From assembly GCA_030425645.1 (NCBI GenBank), contig JAUHZK010000001.1:1-64000 (forward strand): a stretch of 64,000 nt of DNA, read 5' to 3'. Position 1 is the first letter of the stretch, and each line of letters opens with the position of its first letter. The stretch comes from Gammaproteobacteria bacterium (lineage in GTDB: Bacteria > Pseudomonadota > Gammaproteobacteria > JAPPPA01). Under the pieces are notes generated by a model. It had not been told where the DNA came from and did not search any database. It was given only the letters and a program-made list of their open reading frames with translations. The position numbers were made by a program, and so were the translations under genes. This document shows, piece by piece, positions 1,160 to 17,251 of the stretch.

Positions 1160-4075
1160 CTATGCGGCCTCGGCTCCGAACGTTGCAACGTAGTCAATTA
1201 CCTTCTCATAAACTCGCTGGCGAGTCGCTTTCCGTTCAGATAGCTTTAAGGGCTTTGTAATTAGTTGAACGATATCCGGATCAGGCAGCGGCTTCTGCCC
1301 GGTGTATATGTAACGGTCAATTACCGCTTTCAGCTTATCTCTGTCTAACTGTTCTTCTTTAACCAGGGCATCAAACGCTTCAACCCCTTTTTGCTCCCAA
1401 TACTCTTCAAAGCGGTCAGGGATTTCAGCGGTGTGCTTGATATTTGGAAGCTGCTCTTTAATAAATAGCTCGATCAGCTCTCGCTTGCTCCGCAGCTCAA
1501 CTTCCGAGCTCAACATGTCGCTAATTTGCGAGCGTAGTCTTTGCTGCTGTTCCGCGTTGCCATCGTAAAGCTTAGCCAGCAACTCCAAGATGTATTGAAC
1601 ATTCACCACGTCGCGGTGAATCAGTTCAAGCTCAAAGTCGACATCATCCAAAATGCTGGCTTGTTCTTTCTGGTTATCCTTTTTGACCTTCTCATAAAGG
1701 TCTAGGTATGCGCTGCGATAGTCTGCAAAACGCTGTACTGATAGCCCTAGGTCTTCCGCGTCAAACTCAGCAAAAGACTCCAACACATTGTGCAGCCTCA
1801 ACAGCTCCCTAAAGGTCTGCACAAACTGCAGTTCCGCTTCTTCATGCGGAAGGTCGTGTACGGCACTTGGCGTAACCGCTAGCGCTAACAAGTCTGGCAC
1901 CAACTTGTTAAAAGCAGCCACGTACTCCTCATAAGGCGGCACAAAGATATCTTCTTTAGCCTTAACGTTTGAAAACAGCGCAATGGCATCGTCTGTGGCT
2001 TTTTTCAGGTTGCGGAACACAACGATGTTGCCCTGGCTCTTCGCACTATCCAGTATCCGATTAGTACGCGAATACGCTTGTATCAACCCGTGGAACTTGA
2101 GGTTTTTATCAACGTACAAGGTATTGAGTGGCTTGCTATCAAATCCGGTGAGGAACATGTTCACCACTAGCAAGATATCGACCTCTTTCGATTTCACTCG
2201 CTTGGCAAGGTCTTTGTAATAGCCGTAAAACTGTTTGCTGTCTTTGGTGGAAAACGCCGTACCGAACGTTGCGTTGTAATCGGCGATAAACCCATCTAGC
2301 TTATCTCGCGTATGGGGGTTTCCAACCTCTCCGCCAGTGATCTCAAAATCACCGTCAAGGTTGCCATCGGCGTCTTTATCTTCTTCGTTAGCTGTGTAGC
2401 TAAAAATCGTGCCAACGGTCAGGTCGTGCAGGCCTTCGGTTTTTTTCTTGGCGAACAGCTCGTAGTACTTAATCAGCACCTCTACCGAGCTCACACAAAA
2501 CATGGCCGTAAACTGTTTGTTACGGGTTTTGGTGTTGTGCTGGACAATGATGTAATCGGTAATTTTTTCCAGCCGCGCGGGGGACTCCAACAGCTCTTTG
2601 GTGTCGATACCCTCTACATCGATATCAACCTCGTTAGGATTGTCTCCCTTGCGCTTATAGCGCCCCACATATTCCACACCAAAGCGCAGCACATTGCCGT
2701 CTTTAATGGCATCAGTAATGACATAGCTGTGCAGCTTCTTGTGGAACAAGTCTTTGGTGGTTTGTTTGCGTCCGTTCTTGCTCGCCGCGTTGTCTTCAAA
2801 TATCGGCGTGCCGGTAAAGCCAAACATCTGATGGTTATTAAAGAACTCACAGATGCGCCCATGCGTATCCCCAAACTGGCTGCGGTGGCACTCGTCGAAG
2901 ATAAACACGACGCGCTTGTCACGTAATGGCTCCATCTTGGCCAAATACCGTGGGTTCTTAATCGCGGTATTAAGCTTTTGTAGCGTGGTAACAATCAGCT
3001 TAGTGTTATCACTAAACTGATCCACTAAAGCCTTGGTGTTATCGGTACTGTCTACACTGCCTTTTTTGAAGGCATTAAACTCGTCGATGGTCTGGGTATC
3101 TAGGTCTTTGCGGTCCACGCAAAACACTACCTTGTCCACGCCCGGCAGCTTCATCACGAGCTGAGCGGTTTTAAAGCTGGTTAGGGTTTTTCCCGAACCG
3201 GTGGTATGCCAGATATAACCATTGGGCTTTTCAGCGGGAGGGTTGTTTACACGCTCAACAATCGCCTCAGTGGCATATACCTGATAGGGGCGTAGCACCA
3301 TCAGTATCTTGTAGGCTTCATTGAGCACTACATAACGACCCAACATTTTGCCCAGGTGGCCACGATCTAGGAATGAGCCGGCAAACTCACCTAACTTATT
3401 CAGTTTGCGGTTCTGCTCATCGGCCCAATAAAAGGTTTGTTCAAAGCTTTGTTTGCGGGCATTGGCGTAGTACTTGGTGTTTTGGCCATTACTAATGACA
3501 AACAGCTGCACATACTGGAATAGGGCCAAGCCTGACCAGAAGCTGTGTTTCTGATAACGCTGTATCTGGTTAAAAGCTTCTTTAATCTCCAAGCCACGCC
3601 GTTTTAGTTCTATCTGTACCAGCGGCAGACCGTTGACCAATATGGTTACGTCATAACGATTTTTATAACTGCCTTCTATCGTGACCTGTTGTGTGACCTG
3701 GTAACGATTATTAAGTGGCTCGTCGCTGTCTAAAAACGCAATCCACACTGCGCTGCCATCATCACGGCGAAGCTGCATGCGGTCGCGTAGTGCATGGGCT
3801 TTATTGAATACGCCACTGGCTTTATTCAGGTGATTAATCACCTGCTTAAACTCAGCAGCAGAAAATTGCAGGCTATTAAAGACTTCGAGCTGAGTTTGGA
3901 GGTTGGCGAGCAATGACGCCTCATCTACCACGTTGGCGCTTTCGTAGCCTTGCCCGACTAGCTGAGCAACCAGCTCGTTCTCAAGCTGCTGTTCTGACTG
4001 CGGAAAGGCCTTAACCTTTCCCAACTGCTCAACGCTATAAACCGCTGGGCTTTCTTCGACCTTACTGTCTGTCAC
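1160..4075 (-). CDS. hsdR: Type I restriction enzyme, R (endonuclease/translocase) subunit
   Basis: A 971-residue HsdR. The N-terminal nuclease domain shows D142 and E156-L-K158 in the IELKRRG segment. It is followed by the SF2 motor with Walker A TTGSGKT (291-297) and motif II DECH (394-397), and a helical C-terminus that docks on the HsdM2S core. The enzyme cuts unmodified DNA after ATP-driven translocation. The start is GTG with a strong ribosome site (GGAGGAGT) nine bases upstream. It is the last gene of a leftward operon, 27 bases after the Doc-like gene, with no visible damage. Confidence 0.95.
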   Translation of the reverse strand: MTDSKVEESPAVYSVEQLGKVKAFPQSEQQLENELVAQLVGQGYESANVVDEASLLANLQTQLEVFNSLQFSAAEFKQVINHLNKASGVFNKAHALRDRMQLRRDDGSAVWIAFLDSDEPLNNRYQVTQQVTIEGSYKNRYDVTILVNGLPLVQIELKRRGLEIKEAFNQIQRYQKHSFWSGLALFQYVQLFVISNGQNTKYYANARKQSFEQTFYWADEQNRKLNKLGEFAGSFLDRGHLGKMLGRYVVLNEAYKILMVLRPYQVYATEAIVERVNNPPAEKPNGYIWHTTGSGKTLTSFKTAQLVMKLPGVDKVVFCVDRKDLDTQTIDEFNAFKKGSVDSTDNTKALVDQFSDNTKLIVTTLQKLNTAIKNPRYLAKMEPLRDKRVVFIFDECHRSQFGDTHGRICEFFNNHQMFGFTGTPIFEDNAASKNGRKQTTKDLFHKKLHSYVITDAIKDGNVLRFGVEYVGRYKRKGDNPNEVDIDVEGIDTKELLESPARLEKITDYIIVQHNTKTRNKQFTAMFCVSSVEVLIKYYELFAKKKTEGLHDLTVGTIFSYTANEEDKDADGNLDGDFEITGGEVGNPHTRDKLDGFIADYNATFGTAFSTKDSKQFYGYYKDLAKRVKSKEVDILLVVNMFLTGFDSKPLNTLYVDKNLKFHGLIQAYSRTNRILDSAKSQGNIVVFRNLKKATDDAIALFSNVKAKEDIFVPPYEEYVAAFNKLVPDLLALAVTPSAVHDLPHEEAELQFVQTFRELLRLHNVLESFAEFDAEDLGLSVQRFADYRSAYLDLYEKVKKDNQKEQASILDDVDFELELIHRDVVNVQYILELLAKLYDGNAEQQQRLRSQISDMLSSEVELRSKRELIELFIKEQLPNIKHTAEIPDRFEEYWEQKGVEAFDALVKEEQLDRDKLKAVIDRYIYTGQKPLPDPDIVQLITKPLKLSERKATRQRVYEKVIDYVATFGAEAA

Positions 4076-4102
4076 TCAGCACTCCTCCTGTAACCCTTCA
4101 GG

Positions 4103-4543
4103 TTATTCAGCTCCCACAGCCTTAGCAATTTTTATTTTTAAAACTTCGGAATAATCATCCTCATAAAGGATCGAAGCAATTATCTCGGCTGCCAGTTCTT
4201 TATCAATATTATTTTTGGCTATTTCGACAACGATATTTTCCATTCGTCGCACAAATCGTTTTACACAATAACCGTAACCGTTTAACTGCAAAAAGTAAGC
4301 TCCCAAGGCAATGCTAGAACGCTTGTTGCCATCCACAAACGCATGGTTTTTATTAACCGAAAATACCAAATGCGTAAGCTTAGCTACCAAGTTGGGGTAA
4401 TAAAGATCATTCTGAACATGCTCCAACGCACCCTCAATCAAATCCAAATTAGTGATGCCCGCGCGGCCGCCTGAGTTTTTAATAATCCAATCATGCACCC
4501 CTACCGCGTGTGCTGAATCAAAGTAGAGAAACCGTGACGTCAT
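4103..4543 (-). CDS. Doc/Fic-type toxin (death-on-curing family)
   Basis: A 146-residue Fic-fold protein carrying HAFVDGNKR at residues 67-75, the Doc/Fic HxFx(D/N)GNKR motif. Doc proteins phosphorylate EF-Tu; related Fic enzymes transfer AMP to proteins. The lysine after GN is typical of the Doc subtype, so a kinase-like activity is more likely, though this is family inference. It lies four bases after the stop of the 337-residue DNA-binding-like gene, so the two are probably translated together. It sits between hsdS and hsdR, a recurrent place for such toxins in type I loci. Confidence 0.8.
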   Translation of the reverse strand: MTSRFLYFDSAHAVGVHDWIIKNSGGRAGITNLDLIEGALEHVQNDLYYPNLVAKLTHLVFSVNKNHAFVDGNKRSSIALGAYFLQLNGYGYCVKRFVRRMENIVVEIAKNNIDKELAAEIIASILYEDDYSEVLKIKIAKAVGAE

Positions 4544-4547
4544 TGGT

Positions 4548-5561
4548 CTAACGATCTTTCAAGCGCTTAAACACTTCTAGGGTTTCCGGATCAGACAACT
4601 GCTCTTCCAAAGAGCGGCTCGCCTCACCCAAAAATTTCTCTACATCACCCTCTGGCACGGTTTGCAGATAGTTTTCCAACTTAGTATGTAGCGCGTCCCT
4701 AAAACTCATATCGCGGCTTGCCATTTTTATGCGCGCATCTTCAATTATCGGTTTTAAATAGGGGTTGTTTTCAAGAGCATCTAACATCGTATCCAACTCA
4801 CTGGGCAACAACTGCCTGCCCAGTGTAGCGGCTTGCTGGCTCAGTTCTTGAGCCAAACCATTCTCAATACTAGCAATCGCTTTCAACACCTCCGCATACA
4901 GCGTGTCACGCAGGTTGTCACTCTTCGCCAGTTTCAAAATTTGCTTATATTCAGCTGCGTTCTCTCGGAAAACCAATTGATAAATTTTGTTGGTATACAC
5001 CCCAAACTTCATTGGCCCCATATCTAAATGCTGGTTCAGAGCTTCGGCAAACACCTTCCGATAGCTATGTTCTTGGTAGGCAGAAGGTAAGTAATCCGTA
5101 TCTCGTTGATTAATGTATTTGGTATGTCCGCCAGCACGTTCCGCCACCACATCAATCACAATATCCAGCACTCGTGATCGAATACTTTTGGCACGCTCAC
5201 TCTCCGTTAGCAACATCGCCAAGTTCAACGTGGCCCGAAAATTAAACACGCCTAATACCGATGTTTTGGTACCTTCATTAATAAAGGTACCATCACCCAT
5301 ATCTTTGAATTCTTTAAGTTTTTTTCCTCGCAACAGTTGATAACCATTGCTCTTTAACTCATCCGCATGGCTAGCTAAATAACGCTCTACCGTACTGTCA
5401 CTAATGCCGAATAAAGACATTAAATGTTGCTTGGTAAAAAACGCATCACCCTCAAACTCCAGCCCGCCCAGAGATAAATGCTCTTGAATACGAGCCAGGG
5501 CATAGCGGTTATTTAATACGTTCTGGCGCTCAATGGCAGAGCTAGTTAAATCATTAGGCAT
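4548..5561 (-). CDS. Putative DNA-binding partner of the Doc-like toxin
   Basis: A 337-residue protein. Residues about 40-70 (FFTKQHLMSLFGISDSTVER) look like a winged or simple helix-turn-helix. The middle (LGVFNFRATLNLAMLLTES then RSRVLDIVIDVVAERAGG) resembles phage-derived RhuM/BRO-style regulators. The C-terminal half is helical and charged, with an acidic end. I do not recognise a named family with confidence. Tight spacing to the Doc gene and position inside the hsd operon suggest an antitoxin or regulator, which is inference only. It lies nine bases after the hsdS stop. Confidence 0.6.
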   Translation of the reverse strand: MPNDLTSSAIERQNVLNNRYALARIQEHLSLGGLEFEGDAFFTKQHLMSLFGISDSTVERYLASHADELKSNGYQLLRGKKLKEFKDMGDGTFINEGTKTSVLGVFNFRATLNLAMLLTESERAKSIRSRVLDIVIDVVAERAGGHTKYINQRDTDYLPSAYQEHSYRKVFAEALNQHLDMGPMKFGVYTNKIYQLVFRENAAEYKQILKLAKSDNLRDTLYAEVLKAIASIENGLAQELSQQAATLGRQLLPSELDTMLDALENNPYLKPIIEDARIKMASRDMSFRDALHTKLENYLQTVPEGDVEKFLGEASRSLEEQLSDPETLEVFKRLKDR

Positions 5562-5569
5562 GGTTGTTC

Positions 5570-6730
5570 CTAAACAAACATCTGCTGTAGCAGGCCTTTT
5601 TTGAAGGTTTGTGTGTGTTCGATTTGCTGGGCGACCAAATCGATTTTTTTGTCCATGGCGGCCAGAGCGTTGGCGATCTTGGTTTGTTCTTCTACACAGG
5701 GCAGCTTGATTTTTACATCAGCCAGATCGGAACTATTTATTGCGGGATAGCTGGTTCCCGTACACCGGTTTAAAACCAAACTTACGAAGCTATCGAGATG
5801 CAAATATTGGTAAATAAACTGAGGAGAGTTCCTAGTCGTACGCAACTGAGCGTATCCAGTAGAAGCTACATAGCTGCCTTCTCGCGAAAAGAAAAAATTA
5901 TTCTTTTGATAGGGACGCACTGTTTGAAAAAGGATATCCGATTTCTTTAAGCCTCTTTGGGCACGGCTAGGAGCGTCAGCTTTTTGAACTAATTTCGGAT
6001 CACCAAGCCGCCCACCTTTAACACTTTCTAGGTCTATATATAAGAACTCTTCGGGTAACGAGCTGGTTCTCGGGTTTACTTCAACAGCTTTACCAAGTTT
6101 CACATGATCCCAATCCGGAAACGTGTTTCCGTTGTCGTCTTTAAAGCGCAGGGTTTGGCTAAAGAGCTGCTGCATTAGGCCTTTTTTGTATTGCTGCAGC
6201 AGGCTTTGTTTTTGCTTGAGTTGCTGAATGCGGGTATCTACCGATGTTAGAAAATCGGCGATTTTTTGTTGTTCTTCGTGACATTCCGGATAACTAAAAA
6301 TTACTGAAGATACATACTCCCAGTCAGCGCGAGGCATTTTCGAGCCTGAAGATACATTTGCAGCGCGATTAAACTTCTCAGTTTGTATCAGCTGAAACAG
6401 AAATTCCCCGCTAACAACGCCACTACTCAGAATCCAGACTTCAGAAGAAGATACACCTGAGAAACTGGGTCGAACATATTTACGCAAGTACGGGCGTAAT
6501 TTTGAGTATAAGACGTCTCCTTTTTTAAACACTCCCTTTGTGCTTTTCTGCGACGCAATATCCGTTACAGAGACTAAACGGCCTGTATTGGACTCGATAT
6601 TATCTAGCTCAATACATGGTGTAGCTGGGTCAAGCTGAGACGGAAATGCTTTTCGCTTCTGCCTAAAAGCGATATTAGAAAATTCGCTTTCTAGCCAATC
6701 AGATTTGCCAAACCTCAATGATTTGCTCAC
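5570..6730 (-). CDS. hsdS: Type I restriction-modification specificity subunit
   Basis: A 386-residue HsdS with two variable target-recognition domains (about 1-150 and 205-330). Each is followed by a conserved helical spacer, EEQQKIADFLTSVDTRIQQL and EEQTKIANALAAMDKKIDLV, ending in KKGLxQQxF in both. The two halves bind the two parts of a bipartite DNA target, and the helices set the spacing. The start is GTG, and its GTGA overlaps the hsdM stop, implying coupled translation. The target sequence cannot be read from the protein by eye. Confidence 0.93.
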   Translation of the reverse strand: MSKSLRFGKSDWLESEFSNIAFRQKRKAFPSQLDPATPCIELDNIESNTGRLVSVTDIASQKSTKGVFKKGDVLYSKLRPYLRKYVRPSFSGVSSSEVWILSSGVVSGEFLFQLIQTEKFNRAANVSSGSKMPRADWEYVSSVIFSYPECHEEQQKIADFLTSVDTRIQQLKQKQSLLQQYKKGLMQQLFSQTLRFKDDNGNTFPDWDHVKLGKAVEVNPRTSSLPEEFLYIDLESVKGGRLGDPKLVQKADAPSRAQRGLKKSDILFQTVRPYQKNNFFFSREGSYVASTGYAQLRTTRNSPQFIYQYLHLDSFVSLVLNRCTGTSYPAINSSDLADVKIKLPCVEEQTKIANALAAMDKKIDLVAQQIEHTQTFKKGLLQQMFV

Positions 6731-8298
6731 AAAACAGGCCCCAAGATTCTTAATTCTTCACAAAACCCCACAATCATCGCATCGTTTTCAGCCATCTCTT
6801 TTTCTAAGGCTTTTAACTGTGCGCTAACAGCAGCCAAATCCACCGGCTCTTCTTCCTCAAAGGTATCTACATATCGTGGAATATTAAGGTTGTAGTCGTT
6901 TTCGGCAACTTCACTTAGCAGTGCAACATGGCTGTACTTTTCTTTGCTTTCTCTAGTGCGATAGGTTTCTACAATGCGGTTTATATCTTCTGCGCGCAGT
7001 TGGTTTTGGTTGCCGACTTTCTCAAACTGCTGGCTGGCATCAATAAACAAGATGTTGTCGTTATGCTGACGCCGTTTTTTCAGCACCAGAATGCAGGTAG
7101 GAATACCAGTGCCGTAAAAGATATTTGCGGGCAGGCCGATGATGGCATCGAGATAGTTCTTTTCTTCAATCAGATAACGACGAATATGGCCTTCGGCAGC
7201 ACCACGAAAGAGAACGCCGTGAGGTAGCACTACGGCGACGGTGCCATCATCACTGAGGTGGTGCACCATATGTTGCACAAAAGCAAAGTCGGCTTTGGTT
7301 TTGGGCGCGAGTTTGCCGTAAGCGCTAAATCGCTCGTCGTTTTCTAGTACGGCGCTGGCGCTCCATTTAGCGGAGAAGGGCGGGTTGGCCACAATGGCGT
7401 CGAAGGTTTTGCCCGCATGCTCAGGCGCAGGGTGCTCTAGGGTGTCGTCATTGCGAATATCGAACCGCTGATAATGCACGCCGTGCAGAATCATGTTCAT
7501 GCGGGCGAGGTTATAGGTGGTGGGGTTCATTTCTTGGCCGTAGTAGCCACCCACATCTTTTACTTCTTTAGCCACGCGTAAGAGCAACGAGCCAGAACCA
7601 CAAGTTGGATCGTAGACACCCTTTAGTGCGCTTTTACCGCTGGTCACAATTTTGGCCAGAATAGTGCTGACTTGCTGCGGGGTATAGAACTCGCCAGCCT
7701 TCTTACCGGCGCCGCTGGCAAATTGCCCAATTAGATATTCATAAGCATCACCCAACACGTCCGCTTCCGCATCGTCTAGCCGGAAGTCGATTTGGTCTAG
7801 ATGCTGCAGCACCTTGGCAATGAGTTCGTTTTTCTGGTTTTCAGACTTACCCAGTTTGGAAGAGCCGAGATCTAGGTCCTCGAATAGGGCTTGAAAGTCG
7901 TCTTCTGAATCATGCCCTTGAGTACTTTCTTCAATATGGCGTAGTACATTACTGAGGTCTTCCAGAATAAAGTTGTCGGTTTCACCCGCACCTTTAGCGG
8001 CCAATTGGCTAAAAAGCTCATTCGGCTTTAAGAAGTAGCCTAAGCGCTCAACCGCTTCTTCCCGCACAGCTTCCAACAACTCTTTGCCATCATCGGTGGA
8101 TTCATCAATGTCGCAGAACAGTACGCCGTCTTCCCGCAAGATATCGTCGGCATATTGCTGCATGCACTCAGACAGGTATTTGTAGAAGATAAAGCCAAGG
8201 ATGTAGTCGCGGAAATCATCCGCGCCCATTTTTCCGCGCAGAGTGTTGGCGATATTCCAAAGCTGGGTTTCAAGCTGTTTTTTTTGTGTTTCTGTCAT
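6727..8298 (-). CDS. hsdM: Type I restriction-modification DNA methyltransferase subunit
   Basis: A 523-residue HsdM using the ATG at 8298 (MTETQKKQLE...). A longer in-frame start at 8361 would overlap the upstream regulator gene and lacks family similarity. Residues 230-236 (DPTCGSG) are the S-adenosylmethionine motif I and NPPF (305-308) the catalytic motif IV of N6-adenine methylases. The N-terminal helical domain (HsdM_N) precedes them. Together with HsdS it forms the methylase, and with HsdR the restriction complex. The gene is complete. Confidence 0.95.
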   Translation of the reverse strand: MTETQKKQLETQLWNIANTLRGKMGADDFRDYILGFIFYKYLSECMQQYADDILREDGVLFCDIDESTDDGKELLEAVREEAVERLGYFLKPNELFSQLAAKGAGETDNFILEDLSNVLRHIEESTQGHDSEDDFQALFEDLDLGSSKLGKSENQKNELIAKVLQHLDQIDFRLDDAEADVLGDAYEYLIGQFASGAGKKAGEFYTPQQVSTILAKIVTSGKSALKGVYDPTCGSGSLLLRVAKEVKDVGGYYGQEMNPTTYNLARMNMILHGVHYQRFDIRNDDTLEHPAPEHAGKTFDAIVANPPFSAKWSASAVLENDERFSAYGKLAPKTKADFAFVQHMVHHLSDDGTVAVVLPHGVLFRGAAEGHIRRYLIEEKNYLDAIIGLPANIFYGTGIPTCILVLKKRRQHNDNILFIDASQQFEKVGNQNQLRAEDINRIVETYRTRESKEKYSHVALLSEVAENDYNLNIPRYVDTFEEEEPVDLAAVSAQLKALEKEMAENDAMIVGFCEELRILGPVL

Positions 8299-8367
8299 GT
8301 TTGTACGGCAATTGTTTTTCTTATATTGGCACAGGCCGGAGCTCAGATTGCGAGCCAGCAAATAGCT

Positions 8368-8730: not shown

Positions 8731-8964
8731 ATGTCTGGAACATTTTTAACAACTGCAGAGCTATCTGCGCGAATTAAGTACGACTGCCGCACCATTCGCG
8801 AGCAACTTAAAGATTCTGTCCTATTGGAAGGCACCCATTACATCCGTCCATTTGGTGGACGCAAGATTCTTTATATTTGGGAGGCCATCCAACGCGATAT
8901 CGGCAAGGCATCACAAAATAGTCTTGCTATACCAATGGCAAATGGCGGTGTTGCTCATGGTTAA
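8731..8964 (+). CDS. Small helix-turn-helix protein, excisionase-like
   Basis: A 77-residue protein from the ATG at 8731, with AAAAGGG as ribosome site. Residues about 6-50 (LTTAELSARIKYDCRTIREQ, then EGTHYIRPFGGRKILYIWEAI) have the winged-helix pattern of AlpA/Xis-like recombination directionality factors. Its stop overlaps the integrase start (ATGGTTAA), so the pair is coupled. An upstream in-frame start at 8650 would place the promoter inside the gene and was not used. The directionality role is inferred from context. Confidence 0.65.
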   Translation: MSGTFLTTAELSARIKYDCRTIREQLKDSVLLEGTHYIRPFGGRKILYIWEAIQRDIGKASQNSLAIPMANGGVAHG

Positions 8965-10120
8965 AATCCGCGTTCGCCCAGAAACCGGCAATTTGCTGTT
9001 TGACTTTACGTATCAAGGTGTCCGCTGTCGTGAGCAAACAGCGTTAAAGGATACCCCGGCAAACCGTAAGCAACTCGGTGAGCTGGCATCAAAAATTGAT
9101 GCTGCGATGTTGTTAGGCCAATTCAATTACGCAGACTTCTTCCCCAATAGCTCAAAGGTGGAGCGCTTTGAAAAGGGCGCCGAGGTTAGCGGTTCCGCGG
9201 CGCCTTATTTCAAATCCTTTAGCAAGACTTGGTTTGATGAGCTTGCGCCAGGCTGGCGCAAAACCTATCGCCACAAAGTGGAACACATTCTCTTTGGACG
9301 TCTTGTACCGAAGTTCGGTGATTCTGTTTTAGACGCGATTACTAAAGCTGATCTTCTGGCATATCGTAAGGAAGTGGCCGGTATTCGCGGGCGCTCTGGA
9401 GAGCTACTGGGCCCAGAGTCTGTAAACCGCCATATGAAAATTTTGCGGATGATTTTGGATGAGGCAGCTGACCGGTTTGAGTTCGTAACGCCTTACCGCG
9501 GCATCAAGCCACTTAAAGTGCCTAAATCACATATTGAGCCGTTTTCTTTAGCTGAAATTCAGCTGATTCTGGACAACGTGCGCTCCGACTTTAAATCCTA
9601 TTTTACCGTCCGCTTTTTCACCGGTATGCGCACGGCTGAAATTGATGGGTTGCAATGGCATTACGTGGATTTTGATAAGCGTGAAATTCTTATTCGGGAA
9701 ACGTTAGTCGAAGGGGAGTTGAGCTATACAAAAACCGATAGCAGCCAGCGCGAAATTCATATGTCACAACCGGTATATGACGCGCTGAAAGAGCAATACG
9801 AGGCTACCGGTGCTCGCAAGTTTGTATTTACCAACCGCGTCGGTAAGCCCTTGCAGCACAACAACGTGACCAAGCGGGTTTGGTATCCGTTATTACGTTA
9901 TCTGGAGCTACCTAAGCGGAACCCTTATCAAACTCGCCATACCGCAGCGACGCTCTGGCTAGCCAGTGGTGAAACCCCAGAGTGGATTGCTCGACAAATG
10001 GGGCATAGCAATACCGAAATGTTATTCCGAGTGTATTCGCGCTATGTGCCAAACCTTACTCGCAATGATGGCTCGGCCTTTGAGTCATTGCTTACCCGTG
10101 AACTAGGAGGTGCCAAATGA
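8957..10120 (+). CDS. Tyrosine-recombinase integrase with DUF3596-type arm-binding domain
   Basis: A 387-residue integrase starting at the ATG that overlaps the preceding gene. A longer frame from 8852 exists but lies inside that gene. The N-terminal about 60 residues are an arm-type DNA-binding domain, then a SAM-like core-binding domain, then the catalytic domain. The catalytic domain has FFTGMRTAEIDGL (first Arg), a KTDSSQREI loop, YQTRHTAATLW (box II with Tyr in the usual His place, common in this subfamily), MGHSN and the final nucleophile in RVYSRYV. It should insert and excise the mobile unit carrying it. Its attachment site was not found. Confidence 0.9.
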   Translation: MVKIRVRPETGNLLFDFTYQGVRCREQTALKDTPANRKQLGELASKIDAAMLLGQFNYADFFPNSSKVERFEKGAEVSGSAAPYFKSFSKTWFDELAPGWRKTYRHKVEHILFGRLVPKFGDSVLDAITKADLLAYRKEVAGIRGRSGELLGPESVNRHMKILRMILDEAADRFEFVTPYRGIKPLKVPKSHIEPFSLAEIQLILDNVRSDFKSYFTVRFFTGMRTAEIDGLQWHYVDFDKREILIRETLVEGELSYTKTDSSQREIHMSQPVYDALKEQYEATGARKFVFTNRVGKPLQHNNVTKRVWYPLLRYLELPKRNPYQTRHTAATLWLASGETPEWIARQMGHSNTEMLFRVYSRYVPNLTRNDGSAFESLLTRELGGAK

Positions 10121-10962
10121 GTTTGGCTGAAATTCAAAACAGCGTTGATTTTGTGTGTTCTAGCCGTTTTGTGGTGACCGACTTACAACTACGAGTAATT
10201 GGAAAAGAAGATCGCGTGTCTCAAAACGGGGCTCCGTATAGCGTATTAAAGCTGGCCGATTATTCGGCGGAATGCACATGTTTAATGTGGTGGAATCGAT
10301 TTCAATGGACCAATTTGACCATTGAGTATGGCAACATTTATTCGTTTTCTGGCGAGTTCGTTGAGTTAAAAAATAACTACGTACTAGATTCCAAGTCAGT
10401 ACGGCTGGTAGACCCCTCCGCTGTCAAACCCGAAGTGCTGTTTGCACAGCGCTGGCTATCCAATGATCACCACAACTTGGGACAGCGATTTGTTTCAATA
10501 TTCAACAAAATTAGTAGCCCACTTTTAAAAGGCTTGATTGTTGATGTGTTTTTAAGTCCAGTTGTAGCCTTGGGTTTTGCGACTAACCAAGGTAGCCTAG
10601 GCTACCATCACAATTGGCAACATGGCCTTATGCAACATTCGCTTGAGCTTGCCGAGCAGGTCGTATCGCAAGGCGCTTTATCGCCGTTCGATCGTGATAC
10701 AGCAATAGTAGTGGCGTTGGTTCATGACATTGGTAAGGCAGTCACCACCAGTGGCGCTTGCCGCACTCAGGTGGGCAACTTTCAACCACATGATATGTCT
10801 GCACTAGAGTTGCTTGCAGAACCGCTGGGCCGATTAGATAGACATAATGCAGTGGTGGCCAATCAAATCCGGGCGTTCTTTAAACCGCAAGCCTGGTTTC
10901 CCCAAGTTGAGCTTCCAGCGATACAAAAGGTGCGGCAGCTAGATCGTGATAGTTACGTGTAA
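10117..10962 (+). CDS. OB-fold plus HD-domain phosphohydrolase (YhaM/TraI_2-like)
   Basis: A 281-residue protein whose ATGA overlaps the integrase stop. Residues about 15-100 (VVTDLQLRVIGKEDRVS, then SVLKLADYSAECTCLMWW) read as an OB-fold nucleic-acid-binding domain. Residues 164-174 (HHNWQHGLMQH) and 203-204 (HD in VHDIGKA) are metal ligands of an HD hydrolase. The pair OB plus HD occurs in YhaM-type 3'-5' exonucleases and in TraI_2-like proteins of integrative elements. A nuclease or DNA-processing role for the element is inferred. Its end overlaps the convergent recombinase gene by ten bases. Confidence 0.7.
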   Translation: MSLAEIQNSVDFVCSSRFVVTDLQLRVIGKEDRVSQNGAPYSVLKLADYSAECTCLMWWNRFQWTNLTIEYGNIYSFSGEFVELKNNYVLDSKSVRLVDPSAVKPEVLFAQRWLSNDHHNLGQRFVSIFNKISSPLLKGLIVDVFLSPVVALGFATNQGSLGYHHNWQHGLMQHSLELAEQVVSQGALSPFDRDTAIVVALVHDIGKAVTTSGACRTQVGNFQPHDMSALELLAEPLGRLDRHNAVVANQIRAFFKPQAWFPQVELPAIQKVRQLDRDSYV

Positions 10963-13900
10963 GTGTCGGCAGACACTGTTGAGCCGATTGTGGCTTCCTC
11001 GAACTGATCAAGTATGCGTTGCAATGCTAAGAGATATAAGCCCAGTCGAAATCCCCAGCTTGCTTGACGTTTGATGTACCAGTTTTCGAATTTGGCGGGC
11101 GTTACTGGAATCGGGTTGCCAGCTTTATCCTTCCTAATCGGGTTTCTTTTATTCAGCAGGCGCAAACTAATTTTTCCATGCGATGCGGCAATAGATTTTT
11201 TGTGGCGCTCGTATCGATACACACAATCCGGGGATAGGTGCTGATTCCAGAATTTCCAGTGTTGACTCTGTAACCGTCGTCGAAGGTTGCCGGCATCGGC
11301 AGCAGTCAAGAAAGCAACATACCTTGCATAAGCTTTGCCGTTGTCAATAAATGAATCAAACCCGAGCAAGCCGTAAGCTGAAACGAAATTTTTAAGATCA
11401 TTGGGGTTGGTAAAGGGGATATCAGAGTCCCTAGAGTTGCCATGCGCGACGAAGTAATCGACAGCTTGATCCACTATTTGCTTGTTAACGTGGTCAAGCT
11501 CTGCGTAACAACCGAGCATTTCCTCAGCTACTTCTAGATCCTTGTGCTTTTTGGGGAACCCAAAGAATATTCCCTGATTTTTTTCAATATTTCCAAGCCA
11601 ATGCTTGGTGCGATGACGTAAGTTCTTTGCCCCGGATGTATACCGTAGCTGGGTAATGCCCTTAGCTTTGGTGACAAGGGCTTCCAGCGCATGCGTGTCT
11701 AGATAGAAGCGGTCTGCTGCTTCTTTTACTGAATAGCCTTGTGCTGCAATCGCCAATATAGCTTGCCAATAGTCAAATAGGCCAACGCGAAGGGGCCCAA
11801 CTTCTCGATCATATTCCCCAATATGCTTTGCGGTCTTCGTCACCCAGCCAATAGTATCTGGCACCTCTGCTAGCTTCATCAGGCGTTTTTTTGCTCTTTT
11901 AGTGGCCGCATCGAACAAGCTACCCGAGTCGGCTAACTTCTGGAGCTGTCGGATGCCAATCCCCGTTGTTTGTATTAATGCCTCATTGCTTAAGATTGGC
12001 AATGTCGTGTCCTGTTGAAGGGCACGAATTGTGTTTGCGCTATGGATATAGTGTTCAAGTGTTAAAGCGGGCCCCGAATGCCCAATCATCATTGCTATGG
12101 CATGCAATACCTTCGGTGATGACTGACTACCATCCTTCAGCCCAAGAACCAGTTTACGTTGTTCGGAAACATCGATTAATGAGTCACAGTAAGGGGAAGA
12201 TTCATCGACCGTGTCGTGGCCCGAGTGCATCCACCTGTAAAAACTTTGAGTTGCAAAGCTATGTCTTAGTTGATGATATCGAGCACGGGGGTTCCCAGTG
12301 ATTTGCTGTAGCAACCAAGTAATGTGATCGAAAATTTGAGCGTGATTAAGGAGGGAGGCCTGGCCTGTCGACGGGGCAAATAAATACTCTTTACCTCTAA
12401 GGCGCTTAACACAAAGCTCTAGTAAAGACAGTTCTTCGTGCGTCAGCAAAACTGAAATGGGTATTCGCCTGTTTCCACTGCGTGACTTCAAATCTCTTTC
12501 TGAGTGAGGCCGTACTAAAATTTCTGGATACGCGCCTTTTAAGTGGATATCCGCCAACCTTAGATAAAGCACCTCTCGCCGCCTCATTCCACAGCGATAT
12601 CCAAGTACCAGCGCTAAGTAACGGGCTAACAATATGGGTAGCTGTTCTTCGTTAGCCTGATTTAATTTAGCTTGGTAATACTCGGTTGCTAGGTAGTATT
12701 CGTGCGGCCAAAGAATATTCGCATCCACTTCAGCATGGCTTGTTCCTAGGCAGTTCCACGGAGCATCGCCTTCTAAACTTTCGACGCCATGTTCGTCTTC
12801 CAAGTATTCATGAAAATCCCGCAGGTTCTTGCGAAGAGTTTTACTTAAGTTGGGCGTGTCTGCCTCATCAACAACTTCCTCATATACTTCCACTAATTTA
12901 AGTGGATCTAACTTAGTCGGATCTTCCGAGCCTAGCTGGGAGCGCAGACGCCGAGCTAGATTTCGTAGCCTCGTGTAAGTTGAGCTGGGTTCGAATCGAT
13001 TGCCCCATCTGTTTTTGCTTGTTTGTCGGCTCGATGCCCATTTGCATAGCAGAACAGTTATATGGGTGCAGTTTGCCTGATACTCAGCTATCAACCCGTC
13101 GAGCTCTTTTCTTACTTGTTTACGCGTCGACTTTTTACCGGCTCGTAAAACTTGGCCAACCTCCTTCAGCAACTGGGCGTCTGACTTGCCTCCAACGCCA
13201 TCGGGTTTGCTATGAGCCATAAACTGAGGTCGCGGGGGTGTCGGCAAATCCTCAGCTACTTCTAGAAAGGGGGCCTGCCTAGAAATGCCTCTCAAATAAG
13301 AGTTTTCCGAAAGCGATTGCGACCTGTGAATACCGGTAGCACAGTCAATTAGCGCTGGCGAGCAATTGAGCGCGCTTTTCGCCGCAGACGCTTTAAACAA
13401 CCTTGCCGTTGATATGACCCCAAGGCCAACAGACTTCAATAACACTCGCCAGTTGTTCGTGCCTTTTTCGCGGATCCATTCTGTGAGAGCCTCAACACCG
13501 TTATGTGAAAAGAAGCGATCAATCAACAATGTAGTTAATCCGTCAGGGTGCCACCGTTCTGACTGCGTAGCCCCTTTGTAATCGAGTTCAAACCATACTT
13601 CTGACTCAAATGACTTAAGGCGCTTATGTGCCAGCTGTTTTAAAAGCAGGGCGGGACCTTCCTTTTTCAGTAGGCCACCATGATTTATAGCGGAGAACAG
13701 AATCAACCCAGCTATCTGGAGTGGGTTTTGTTGATAGGTTTCCAGCTCGGTTAGAAATTGAGACTCTAATTGCCCTAAAGTTTTTATATCGCTGAACAGG
13801 TCGATTGTTATCCTCGCCTTAGGGCGTTTGATCCGGATAACCTGTATGGCAGAAACGTTTTCCTGCTGCTTAAGCAGGACATCTTTCAATTCGTCCATCA

Positions 13901-14054
13901 AAAGCCCAGCGCGTGCGGGGCCTTCCTGCTCAGTAAGGCGCATGAAGAGCGCGTGTGCTTTTTTCTGGTCTATTTGACACTCAGCTAGAGTGTCTTCTCC
14001 CTTGTATTCTCTAAATTGAGCCGCCAGAGCATTTTGCAGCGTTTGATCAAGCAT
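10953..14054 (-). CDS. Large tyrosine recombinase (1033 aa) with long N- and C-terminal extensions
   Basis: The catalytic domain sits in the middle (about 475-680): R491 in GYRCGMRRREVL, K523 in DLKSRSGNRRIP, H594-x-x-R597 in YHQLRHSFAT, H659 in IGHSG and Y669 in LEHYIH, so all catalytic positions are present. About 470 residues precede it. About 350 follow, with helix-turn-helix-like stretches (IQTTGIGIRQLQKLADSG, and GYSVKEAADRFYLDTHALE), far longer than a normal integrase of about 400 residues. It is last in a three-gene overlapping operon; its start overlaps the stop of the 831-aa gene by one base (TAATG). Confidence 0.85.
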   Translation of the reverse strand: MLDQTLQNALAAQFREYKGEDTLAECQIDQKKAHALFMRLTEQEGPARAGLLMDELKDVLLKQQENVSAIQVIRIKRPKARITIDLFSDIKTLGQLESQFLTELETYQQNPLQIAGLILFSAINHGGLLKKEGPALLLKQLAHKRLKSFESEVWFELDYKGATQSERWHPDGLTTLLIDRFFSHNGVEALTEWIREKGTNNWRVLLKSVGLGVISTARLFKASAAKSALNCSPALIDCATGIHRSQSLSENSYLRGISRQAPFLEVAEDLPTPPRPQFMAHSKPDGVGGKSDAQLLKEVGQVLRAGKKSTRKQVRKELDGLIAEYQANCTHITVLLCKWASSRQTSKNRWGNRFEPSSTYTRLRNLARRLRSQLGSEDPTKLDPLKLVEVYEEVVDEADTPNLSKTLRKNLRDFHEYLEDEHGVESLEGDAPWNCLGTSHAEVDANILWPHEYYLATEYYQAKLNQANEEQLPILLARYLALVLGYRCGMRRREVLYLRLADIHLKGAYPEILVRPHSERDLKSRSGNRRIPISVLLTHEELSLLELCVKRLRGKEYLFAPSTGQASLLNHAQIFDHITWLLQQITGNPRARYHQLRHSFATQSFYRWMHSGHDTVDESSPYCDSLIDVSEQRKLVLGLKDGSQSSPKVLHAIAMMIGHSGPALTLEHYIHSANTIRALQQDTTLPILSNEALIQTTGIGIRQLQKLADSGSLFDAATKRAKKRLMKLAEVPDTIGWVTKTAKHIGEYDREVGPLRVGLFDYWQAILAIAAQGYSVKEAADRFYLDTHALEALVTKAKGITQLRYTSGAKNLRHRTKHWLGNIEKNQGIFFGFPKKHKDLEVAEEMLGCYAELDHVNKQIVDQAVDYFVAHGNSRDSDIPFTNPNDLKNFVSAYGLLGFDSFIDNGKAYARYVAFLTAADAGNLRRRLQSQHWKFWNQHLSPDCVYRYERHKKSIAASHGKISLRLLNKRNPIRKDKAGNPIPVTPAKFENWYIKRQASWGFRLGLYLLALQRILDQFEEATIGSTVSADTYT

Positions 14055-16549
14055 TACATCGCACCTTCTAGGGCGACTAGCCCAAGTTCTTCAATGATAA
14101 TGTCCAAGCTTTCAATAATCGCCTCGCTTGATTCAGTAAACGTAGACGTTGAATGGCTATCCCAAAATGCCTCCCCCCTAGAATGGTGGCCAAGCAAGAC
14201 ATCGATCAAATATGGCTCCAAACCTTTCTCGATCAGGCGCGTTCGAAGAAACTTTCTATTGGAATTAAGAGGCCAAGCCCAGATTTGGCCAATCATGTTT
14301 GAAAGGGAGCTGGGCCCAACTTGAAGCCACTTGCCTTTGGAGTTCAATAGAAATACTTCCGGCACGTTTTCGTTACGCTCAAGCAGCTCGCATGCATGTT
14401 GAGGAGATTGCAATAAATAGCGAGCCAACTGATTGGTTCTGTGATTGCGGTAAAAAGTTGCAACTCTTGTGGCTAACGGATGAACCGGTGCAATCCTGGT
14501 GTGAAATTGATCCTCCCCATCTTTATCTCGAAATACGGTTATTCCTGTAGCTGGATCAATTTGGTCAATGCTAATAAACGGGCCACGAACGGACCGTATT
14601 CCAGTTAGCAAACCCTGCGTTATGACACAGTGCGCGGTATAAATGTTGTGCCACTCAGTCGATGGAGACTCGCCTTCCTCAAACTGTTTCTTTATTTCTA
14701 GTGTTCTCTTAGTCAGCTCTGCATAAGCTTTTTTCAACTCACCAGTTTTGGGGCAATACCGCCCTCCGAAGGTGGTTTCTGAAATGCTCTGCAATCGTTC
14801 CGTAGGCTGGTGCGCCGCTACTCCAAGCTCTGCCAGCAGCTCTACCCTCAACTCGAGATACAAACCTGCTAGCCAGCTATCACGTGGAGTCAAATAGAAA
14901 GTTCGCGCTGAGGAAGCAGGCAGGTATTGAGAGAATATATAAGATGCTGTTGTTGGCTCTATCTTTCCTGCGGCCTTCAGCAATAGGTACCGACTCAGCC
15001 TTGTCGACGTTATGCGGTCACCGTTTTCTTGTAGCAGGGTTCTTATCTTTCTAGGTAGCTGCTTTCTGCCTTTAAATGGCATCGTTTTACCTTGATCGAA
15101 TAGTTTTCTTAGATGTTTAGCAATTTCGGCGTTTGGTTCCGGCAGAAAGTGGTTTTGGGGGACGCTTGAACGGCTCTTAGTTTCCGCCCGCAGGTTTAAT
15201 TCAGTTGCGAACTCTGGTCCATAGCCTCTCAATATCCAGGAGCTAGATCTCAAATCAAACCCAAGAGCTTCCTCGGGTATAACGAAGTCAGGCGGAGCGT
15301 CGAAGATTTCTATGGTCCGAGCACGCTCTACATCACTTGAAGTGAAAAGCATGATTAGTAGTAAGAGGGCTAATAATTTATCCTGCTTGCCAACGGAAAA
15401 AATTATTGACTTCAAATCGTTTAAATCAGAGGACGTAAGTAATTGGGTTGAGAGCGGTAAATACTGGTTTTGGCGCTCAATAGCTTTTATTGCCCCAGTG
15501 GCTTTTAGTTTGGCGTTAAACGCTTGGGCATAAGCCGGCTGTTCTTGGTAGTCCGCATAAATAAACTCAAACGGCGCCCTTATTTCAGCATGCTCAACAC
15601 CTAACTGTTCCAGCTCAATAAGGTCTGCGTTGTTTGGCAATTCAAACAGAGAGGCAATATGAGGCGGTTCTGTTTCATCATCTTTGTCTCCAAAAACTAG
15701 CAGTTCATATCCAGATAACTCGCCAATGCCGCTGACCCCATGTATGCCTTGTGATATGCGGGATAAACGTCGTGGTGAAAGCCTTCCCCGCCCAGTACGT
15801 CGTATAACGTAACGGCCGGTTAGCGTTTTAATCAATTTAAGGGTGCGCTTTAGCGAAACTTCCAAAGTTTCTTCAGTTTCGGACTCGTTGGGGTGAGGCG
15901 GCCCCGTTTCAGCTTTAGCTTGTTCTGATTCTTCTTCAAGCTCAGCGCCTTCTTGGCTATCTTCATGCGCAGCCGAAGCAACTATCGCTTTATATATTTC
16001 CTCTAGGCTATTTAGGTCATGGTGATCTAGGCTTTCAAGCCATTGCTGCCCTACCTTGGTCTCCGTGATTCGCCTAATGCCAAGAGAGTAACTATTTAGG
16101 TCAGACACCTTGATATCTGCATACGGGTCTTGAAGCTCGGTTAATGCTGCAAATAGCACTTGTTGAAGTCTCATGAATGCTTTTGGCTTTGCGTCAAAGA
16201 CGAAGTACATCAAGGAATAAATCGGGCTATGCGTTAACACTCCATGTAAAGCGGTGGTGGCTGCGAGATCACGACGCGGGCCATAGCGTTCATTAATTTT
16301 TTCTAGCGTTTTGGCGTTTTCTGCAAGAAATTTAGCCGCGGCTAGCAATCTATCGTCCGGGCCTGGCAGGTCGTTAGTTGGGCCTAACTTTTCGTTGATT
16401 CTTAAGACCGTGTTACACACGCCAAGAATAGAAACTGGCCGTCGTTCGAGTGGATGATGGATTAGCCGACAAAACTCGAGTATTCCGGCCAATAAATCGG
16501 GCGACTCCGAAAACTCGGAACACCATTGCCAATTGTCATCCCTACTCAA
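14054..16549 (-). CDS. Recombinase-fold protein (831 aa) lacking the nucleophilic tyrosine
   Basis: Only the C-terminal third resembles a tyrosine recombinase: R652 in LLTGIRSVRGP, K766-x-x-R769 in NRKFLRTRL, and LGHH (786-789). The next ten positions (SRGEAFWDSH) contain no tyrosine and none follows to the end, so the usual nucleophile is missing. The rest is mostly helical with an acidic linker near residues 200-230. It probably binds DNA alongside the catalytic 1033-aa partner rather than cutting by itself; this is inference. The gene overlaps the ParB-like gene by eight bases. Confidence 0.65.
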   Translation of the reverse strand: MSRDDNWQWCSEFSESPDLLAGILEFCRLIHHPLERRPVSILGVCNTVLRINEKLGPTNDLPGPDDRLLAAAKFLAENAKTLEKINERYGPRRDLAATTALHGVLTHSPIYSLMYFVFDAKPKAFMRLQQVLFAALTELQDPYADIKVSDLNSYSLGIRRITETKVGQQWLESLDHHDLNSLEEIYKAIVASAAHEDSQEGAELEEESEQAKAETGPPHPNESETEETLEVSLKRTLKLIKTLTGRYVIRRTGRGRLSPRRLSRISQGIHGVSGIGELSGYELLVFGDKDDETEPPHIASLFELPNNADLIELEQLGVEHAEIRAPFEFIYADYQEQPAYAQAFNAKLKATGAIKAIERQNQYLPLSTQLLTSSDLNDLKSIIFSVGKQDKLLALLLLIMLFTSSDVERARTIEIFDAPPDFVIPEEALGFDLRSSSWILRGYGPEFATELNLRAETKSRSSVPQNHFLPEPNAEIAKHLRKLFDQGKTMPFKGRKQLPRKIRTLLQENGDRITSTRLSRYLLLKAAGKIEPTTASYIFSQYLPASSARTFYLTPRDSWLAGLYLELRVELLAELGVAAHQPTERLQSISETTFGGRYCPKTGELKKAYAELTKRTLEIKKQFEEGESPSTEWHNIYTAHCVITQGLLTGIRSVRGPFISIDQIDPATGITVFRDKDGEDQFHTRIAPVHPLATRVATFYRNHRTNQLARYLLQSPQHACELLERNENVPEVFLLNSKGKWLQVGPSSLSNMIGQIWAWPLNSNRKFLRTRLIEKGLEPYLIDVLLGHHSRGEAFWDSHSTSTFTESSEAIIESLDIIIEELGLVALEGAM

Positions 16550-17018
16550 GGGGTTTGAGGCTCCGTGATATGGCGCGGGTGGACCTCAGCCCTGGCGCTA
16601 TTCGCTCTGCTTCGACGGCACCAATGTCACCAATGATCTTAGCTATTTGCATAGCTGGTTTAGAGCCTAGCGAATGCATTAAGCGGGCACCTAGTAATTC
16701 TGTAGCTGCCATCTGCTGAATAAATTCGGAGTTAGGGTTCTTGTATACAAAAGCGTGTAGCTTGCAACTCACATCTTTAGCTACCATTAGCTGGTACGTC
16801 CGGAAGCCACAGAAAATCTGATACTTATCTGCTCGGCGAATTAAGTGCACAGGATGTTGCAGAGAGAGCTGTGCCAGCGCGCTAGTTGACAGCGTCGTGA
16901 CGCTTGACGCAAAAACCAAATTTGAGGCCGTGTCGGCAAGTTCGATAACAGCGGGGCAAAGCCCTACAATGTCGGCGGCTGACACAAGCTCAAAAGTAGG
17001 TTTATCCATTTTTGCCAT
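16542..17018 (-). CDS. ParB-like small protein of the recombinase operon
   Basis: A 158-residue protein. The segment HPVHLIRRADKYQIFCGFRT resembles the core of ParB/Srx-fold N-terminal domains (normally ...G.YeIiaGeRR.), and the C-terminal part is helical and could bind DNA. It is too short for a full chromosomal ParB. As first gene of the trio it may be a DNA-binding accessory factor that positions the recombinases, or a regulator; this is inference. A start at residue 4 (17009) is also possible. Confidence 0.5.
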   Translation of the reverse strand: MAKMDKPTFELVSAADIVGLCPAVIELADTASNLVFASSVTTLSTSALAQLSLQHPVHLIRRADKYQIFCGFRTYQLMVAKDVSCKLHAFVYKNPNSEFIQQMAATELLGARLMHSLGSKPAMQIAKIIGDIGAVEAERIAPGLRSTRAISRSLKPLE

Positions 17019-17095: not shown

Positions 17096-17208
17096 GATTT
17101 TAAGCGGTTTTTAACGTTATTCGAGGGCGCTGGGCAGTTTGTCCGCAAGGGCCAAAAAGACCATATATAAACGCTTTAAGCCTATTGTGCCAAATTTCAC
17201 GCCCCTCC

Positions 17209-17251
17209 CTCCGGAGGCAAAGGCCAGAGGTTCGAACTCTAGGGCGGGCCA
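17209..17251 (+). other. Putative attR: duplicated 3' half of a tRNA-Arg(CCG) gene
   Basis: Reading rightward, the segment resembles a tRNA 3' half. The anticodon-loop-like CTCCGGA (17209-17215, anticodon CCG) is followed by GGCAAAGGC, a T-arm-like AGAGGTTCGAACTCT and an acceptor-like GCGGGCC plus A (17244-17251). No 5' half precedes it and the T-arm appears to lack a base. That is expected of the copy of a tRNA 3' end left at one side of an island. The intact tRNA should then lie left of the window. Core genes begin 48 bases further on. Confidence 0.5.

Follow-up and report, generated by a model that had tools for sequence, protein, structure and literature searches.

The three-gene operon

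A cluster of three overlapping genes, one of them encoding a giant tyrosine recombinase, is located next to a likely attachment site in the window analysed here, 64,000 nucleotides at the start of a gammaproteobacterial contig. This raises the question of whether the trio moves DNA, and if so, what it moves and with which partners. All three ORFs are on the minus strand. The small gene (158 aa, 16542–17018) is the first of the operon and overlaps the medium gene (831 aa, TTG start, 14054–16549) by 8 bases, and the medium gene shares 1 base with the giant gene (1033 aa, 10953–14054). The ORF listing confirms the coordinates, sizes and overlaps given in a first-pass annotation of the window.

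That annotation also credited the 1033-aa protein with every catalytic position of a tyrosine recombinase, which holds throughout the family. The giant matches Pfam PF00589 (E 2.9e-9) and its profile aligns with the solved XerC-like and XerH structures (4a8e, E 4.3e-8). The alignment of relatives shows no variation at R491, K523, H594, R597, H598, G658-H659 or Y669, and the R-K-H-R-H-Y catalytic set is complete in 19 of 19 giants. Since all catalytic residues are kept, the trio appears to be maintained as a recombinase.

The 831-aa medium protein has no match in Pfam or NCBIfam, and a PDB profile search returned nothing. Its C-terminal part carries recombinase-like motifs (R652, K676, R769, G787-H788), from which we infer that it is a recombinase-fold protein. 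In 17 relatives, R652, D675-K676 and G787-H788 are present without exception and R769 in 16, while the first catalytic histidine is variable. As first annotated, no tyrosine is found C-terminal to the GHH of the window copy. Nor is one conserved in the family: the tyrosine position (H+11) is occupied by F in seven relatives, Y in five, H in three, T in one and L in one. A more distal tyrosine (H+19), beyond the usual distance, is present in nine of the 17 and absent from the window copy. Having a tyrosine at neither H+11 nor H+19, the window protein cannot use the canonical nucleophile. Structure prediction of the medium C-terminal part and of the small protein, made from one or two sequence rows, gave a mean pLDDT of 37–38 and was not used for a fold search. 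The motifs behind the recombinase fold assigned in the first-pass annotation are thus present, and the fold itself is deduced from them.

Some relatives have medium and giant joined in a single protein, an arrangement in keeping with the two being physical partners. Fused forms occur on contig C4 of the window genome and on Acinetobacter plasmids; the 39 plasmid records with a match covering 80% or more are all from Acinetobacter. The fused trio on C4 (C4:6633-12787, L024) is the second trio of this genome. It consists of an 1825-aa medium-giant and a 226-aa small gene, is not located at a tRNA, and its fused protein is about 27% identical over the full length to the Acinetobacter plasmid proteins.

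Profile searches of Pfam, NCBIfam and PDB gave no match for the small protein. It is weakly ParB-like through a motif of the type 'hPvvv..dkYxixxGxRs'; this much of the earlier ParB assignment stands, whereas the hhalign match to KorB/ParB is short and non-significant. Single-protein pattern searches of the genome_contigs and viral_contigs collections retrieved no relatives of the window proteins, and a Stutzerimonas protein used as a pattern query gave one giant (97%). These searches yielded almost no relatives because sequence divergence is too high.

Integrase, excisionase and cargo genes

Convergent with the trio are two further genes on the plus strand. One encodes a candidate AlpA-like excisionase (Xis, 8731–8964) and the other a tyrosine integrase with an Arm-DNA-bind_2 domain (Int, 8957–10120), whose ORF is listed from a TTG at 8852 and likely starts at the ATG at 8957. 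A gene for an OB-fold/HD-domain protein (10117–10962, plus strand), found in only part of the family, is convergent with the giant gene. The xis-int pair (8731–10120) is found alongside the trio in nearly every linked island, and the module therefore comprises five genes, with three recombinase-like proteins plus Xis. The earlier picture of a catalytic giant, a nucleophile-less recombinase-like partner and a small accessory beside an attachment site survives as part of this module; it missed Xis and Int, and the module is larger. Another contig of the window genome (C12:655-2739) has a further xis-int copy of the same type, placed next to a tRNA-Met at its 5' side.

The cargo in the window is a type I restriction-modification operon on the minus strand (1160–8361; hsdR, Fic, PDC-M59A-like, hsdS, hsdM), in which the Fic-domain and PDC-M59A-like genes (4103–5561) lie between hsdS and hsdR. 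Near the left end of the same island, on contig C5, a WYL regulator is divergent from weakly JetD/JetC-like genes (L045 501–4924), a possible divergent Wadjet-type or other defence system. Several of these islands carry anti-phage systems. BREX genes are found beside an adjacent trio and xis-int in genome G056, where the island ends were not located.

A split tRNA gene and its replacement

The attachment site suspected beside the trio exists: a tRNA-Arg(CCG) gene has been split, and the site is its 3' half (attR, 17207–17251, plus strand), reading from the anticodon loop to the CCA between 17209 and 17251. No second copy of the 45-bp site was found in the window genome at up to three mismatches. 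A looser tRNA pattern located the 5' half on the minus strand of contig C5, 7.7 kb from the contig end. The first 17 bp of attR are the core, CCCTCCGGAGGCAAAGG, common to the 5' half (L045 7887–7871, minus strand), and the acceptor CCGCCCT of the 5' half pairs with AGGGCGG of the window half. Joined by script, the two halves give a perfect 75-nt tRNA-Arg(ccg) with paired stems, which is the reconstructed empty site. About 60 bp further in from the 5' half begins a replacement tRNA-Arg(CCG), which is intact and differs slightly in sequence.

The flanking genes agree with this reconstruction. In the window genome pgi follows the 3' half and fcl precedes the 5' half on C5, giving the two sides of an island; in a genome of the same genus (G001) pgi-gmd-fcl are contiguous, with no island at this place. 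The window contig and C5 both start with a repeat of 422 bp (99.5%; 122–541 in the window), where the assembly breaks inside the island. The island therefore spans 25 kb or more and contains an unassembled gap.

As the window genome has the two halves on separate contigs and an unclosed island, the split gene could be an artefact of assembly or annotation, or represent two unrelated tandem tRNA genes. We regard this as very improbable, since joining the halves yields a perfect tRNA, the flanking genes are syntenic with G001, and both halves with a matching core are found on one contig in genomes G244 and G026 (with an internally deleted 3' half in the latter) and in Marinobacter pelagius. In addition, there are 83 other cases of a split gene with a replacement. 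The marks of a tRNA-targeted island, namely a core repeat identical to the 3' part of the tRNA at both ends and an integrase inside, were found for window/C5, G244, G026 and M. pelagius; the window island is also absent from its relative G001.

Distribution and gene order

Islands of the same anatomy measure 36.9 kb in G244, about 74 kb in G026 and about 37.6 kb in M. pelagius. In G244 and G026 the dead 5' half is followed by the spare tRNA, cargo, xis-int, the giant-medium-small set, more cargo and, last, the dead 3' half; tRNA-Arg(CCG) is the sole tRNA within the 130–140 kb examined. Cargo lies between the trio and the 3' half, about 8 kb of it in G244 and 6 kb in G026, so the earlier expectation that the trio is always at the element end does not hold.

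A DNA pattern consisting of the 5' half plus the spare tRNA was run over 84,980 species genomes and gave 95 stretches. Matches in Caulobacter and some other genomes are ordinary tandem tRNAs and were excluded from the count, leaving 83 genuine split-plus-replacement sites besides the window, one of them from a viral-listed contig. The spare was called as tRNA-Arg(ccg) in 78 of the 83 and the 5' half in none. Pattern-positive genomes include Azotobacter vinelandii, several Pseudomonas, Stutzerimonas, Marinobacter and Idiomarina, altogether about 80 species genomes by one strict pattern. The viral-listed contig (L262, IMGVR_UViG_2501799902_000006) is such an island, with a small gene, a broken medium, a giant and Int beside the split tRNA.

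The module is strongly enriched at these sites. The profile of the 831-aa family detects the medium in 34 of 50 split-site genomes as compared to 11 of 369 genomes of the class (Fisher p 2.6e-28), and Int is found in 37 of 50 as compared to 12 of 369 (p 1.5e-31), with both tests ignoring shared ancestry and the differing taxon mix. The 16 of 50 split sites in which the medium is undetected count against the trio being part of the integration module. In about twenty genomes the split tRNA, Int and the medium or giant are on one contig, always in that sequence, and the full order in linked islands is split tRNA, integrase, giant, medium, small. Across the thirteen islands read through the module, the giant adjoins the medium in all but one, interrupted, case, and a short gene (157–253 aa) is upstream of the medium in most. 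Medium, giant, xis and int all point the same way in Pseudomonas and Stutzerimonas, whereas in Marinobacter, Halopseudomonas, G244, G026 and the window the xis-int pair and the trio are convergent. Co-occurrence of the three genes, proposed in the first-pass annotation as a check, is thus widespread. Pairwise distances correlate at 0.98 for giant and medium, 0.89 for giant and small and 0.72 for giant and Int, as would be expected of a module travelling together, although the correlation may partly reflect host phylogeny.

Comparison with known systems

The first-pass annotation held that the trio might be a family separate from the strand-biased circularising elements (SEs), and our comparison agrees. 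SE membership was rejected, as the pAQU1 SE proteins gave a best E of 0.017 against HMMs of 14–19 relatives and a best hhalign E of 9e-4, from IntA against the giant in an alignment of just 50 columns, and no characterised element was matched. The inventory is SE-like: an ordinary tyrosine recombinase, a recombinase-fold protein without the catalytic motif, a large tyrosine recombinase and a small auxiliary. The order differs, being intA-tfp-intB-srap (545/614/671/161 aa) in SEs and small-medium-giant with xis-int convergent or downstream here. SEs have imperfect C/C' inverted repeats of 13–19 bp with a 6-bp spacer, form a strand-biased circle and leave no empty site, whereas the islands described here have a direct core of 17–20 bp in the tRNA, and Xis. 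There are SEs that target bcp and bring a replacement for it (PMC9345347). Both SE and GInt have several recombinase-type proteins, one of them degenerate (PMC10214605, PMC5385486). GInt (ginABCD, PMC5385486) resembles our module in having three recombinase-type genes, one degenerate, plus a small gene, and imperfect direct repeats of 10–17 nt. It differs in being one four-gene operon at one end, without Xis, and the text of that paper does not mention tRNA; this distinction is by description, not by sequence.

Our first suspicion, that the trio was GmtY/Z/X of the Gamma-Mobile-Trio (GMT) islands, was rejected. The window giant, medium and Int are unlisted against the GmtY model NF040693 (441 positions, curated cut-off 340 bits) even at E 10, with no profile similarity. 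GMT islands, reportedly described in Nature Microbiology in 2024, are said to carry a three-protein module, GmtY/GmtZ/GmtX, with recombinases, together with defence cargo. The islands studied here are alike in having a three-protein module with recombinases and defence cargo. A true GMT locus is present elsewhere in the window genome (C9:115519-120173; L033 7519-12173), where a GmtY scoring 508 bits, the only gene of this genome to pass the cut-off, is followed by 908-aa and 200-aa genes.

Ordinary tRNA-targeted islands with a P4/lambda-type integrase and an AlpA-like Xis restore the 3' end of the tRNA at one junction. The islands described here share with them Int, Xis and a core from the anticodon loop to the 3' part, but here neither junction copy is functional, the island brings a complete spare tRNA and the giant/medium/small set is extra. 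Tycheposons are likewise found at tRNA genes and have cargo and a tyrosine recombinase; PMC10872708, through which they are cited here, describes them with a border tRNA-Met and XerD and mentions no multi-recombinase module, and they were compared by description rather than by sequence. Split tRNA-Arg(CCG) islands are not described in the open-access literature searched; an earlier report may exist in subscription papers. By their apparent workings, the islands are best called a variant of the SE/GInt/GMT class, with a trio that by sequence is neither SE nor GMT.

Which recombinases act on the tRNA gene

The evidence gathered above suggests that the trio is probably part of a five-gene integration module (small, medium, giant, Xis and Int) of islands that integrate into tRNA-Arg(CCG). 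Two single-enzyme explanations need to be weighed against it.

Int and Xis are a standard pair and could integrate the islands alone, the trio being a conserved passenger with a role in resolving or transposing DNA elsewhere, in defence or in DNA maintenance. Relatives of Int are found 0.3–2.5 kb from intact tRNA-Met, tRNA-Arg(ACG) or tRNA-Val, several of them without a detectable trio nearby, which we count against our preferred explanation; Int may be a self-sufficient integrase. It is also far better conserved (46–57% to the window) than the trio proteins (8–23%). Even so, we find a passenger role rather unlikely. No ends belonging to the trio itself were detected, its medium is frequent at split sites against a background of 3%, its order relative to Int is constant in every linked island and the catalytic residues of the giant are all kept.

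Less likely still, in our view, is that the trio cuts tRNA-Arg(CCG) without Int, much as SE, GInt or GMT sets would, and that xis-int belongs to a second, nested or fused tRNA island. In favour of this reading are trios without a detected Int that are not at a tRNA, on a Vibrio cyclitrophicus plasmid, on Acinetobacter plasmids and on contig C4, and the ties of Int relatives to other tRNAs, so that Int by itself does not explain the CCG specificity. The trio, however, is not tied to CCG either, being found with Int at tRNA-Val in G090 (on separate contigs) and at tRNA-Arg(ACG) in G016 (in the fused form), and the 37 of 50 split sites carrying Int speak against a trio acting alone. Int near other tRNAs and plasmid-borne trios without Int together indicate that neither is tied to CCG alone. 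Joint action of Int and the trio is accordingly favoured over both single-enzyme alternatives as the most likely reading of the sequences.

Under joint action, strand exchange would take place within about 17–20 bp covering the anticodon loop and the 3' anticodon stem of tRNA-Arg(CCG). Integration would place a dead half of the gene at each end, the 5' half on one side and the 3' half on the opposite side, and tRNA function would be supplied by the complete tRNA-Arg(CCG) of the island, 51–74 bp inside its left end. The giant would be a catalytic subunit acting on the island ends, the medium would be its recombinase-like partner in the complex, binding DNA but not cleaving it, and the small protein and Xis would set assembly and direction. 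Int presumably works with the trio and Xis, rather than for a different element.

The distance from the core to the spare tRNA bears on how such a complex might be arranged. Spacers are 51, 61–62 or 70–74 bp, with none between although 46–76 was allowed (L117-L212). The 10.5-bp periodicity persists when near-identical interiors are collapsed (36 clusters, R 0.84, p 5e-5), the clusters not being fully independent lineages. As the spacers correspond to integral helical turns, they suggest a defined position in the recombination complex for the spare tRNA or for the intervening DNA. A bolder and doubtful possibility is that a hetero-multimeric recombinase (Int, giant, nucleophile-less subunit, small protein and Xis) recognises tRNA-Arg(CCG) and tells the dead copy from the spare 51–74 bp away by helical phasing. 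If true, such discrimination would be a new way to protect an essential target gene while cutting, and one that is repeatable for tandem insertion. Stutzerimonas stutzeri KOS6 (L145; G389:C2:1256187-1256408) has two units in tandem, one of which has had its spare tRNA split in turn and replaced.

Significance

The putative islands make up a previously unnamed family, which splits one tRNA gene, brings a complete spare and carries anti-phage defence genes. If this is right, it gives a name to islands that are widespread and whose defining proteins, the 831-aa protein among them, are without a Pfam or NCBIfam model, and adds a lineage to the poorly understood systems with several recombinase-type proteins including a degenerate one. 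The split-plus-spare DNA signature would find such islands without annotation. It would also pose a clean question, namely why an element should break an essential tRNA gene and yet bring a whole spare.
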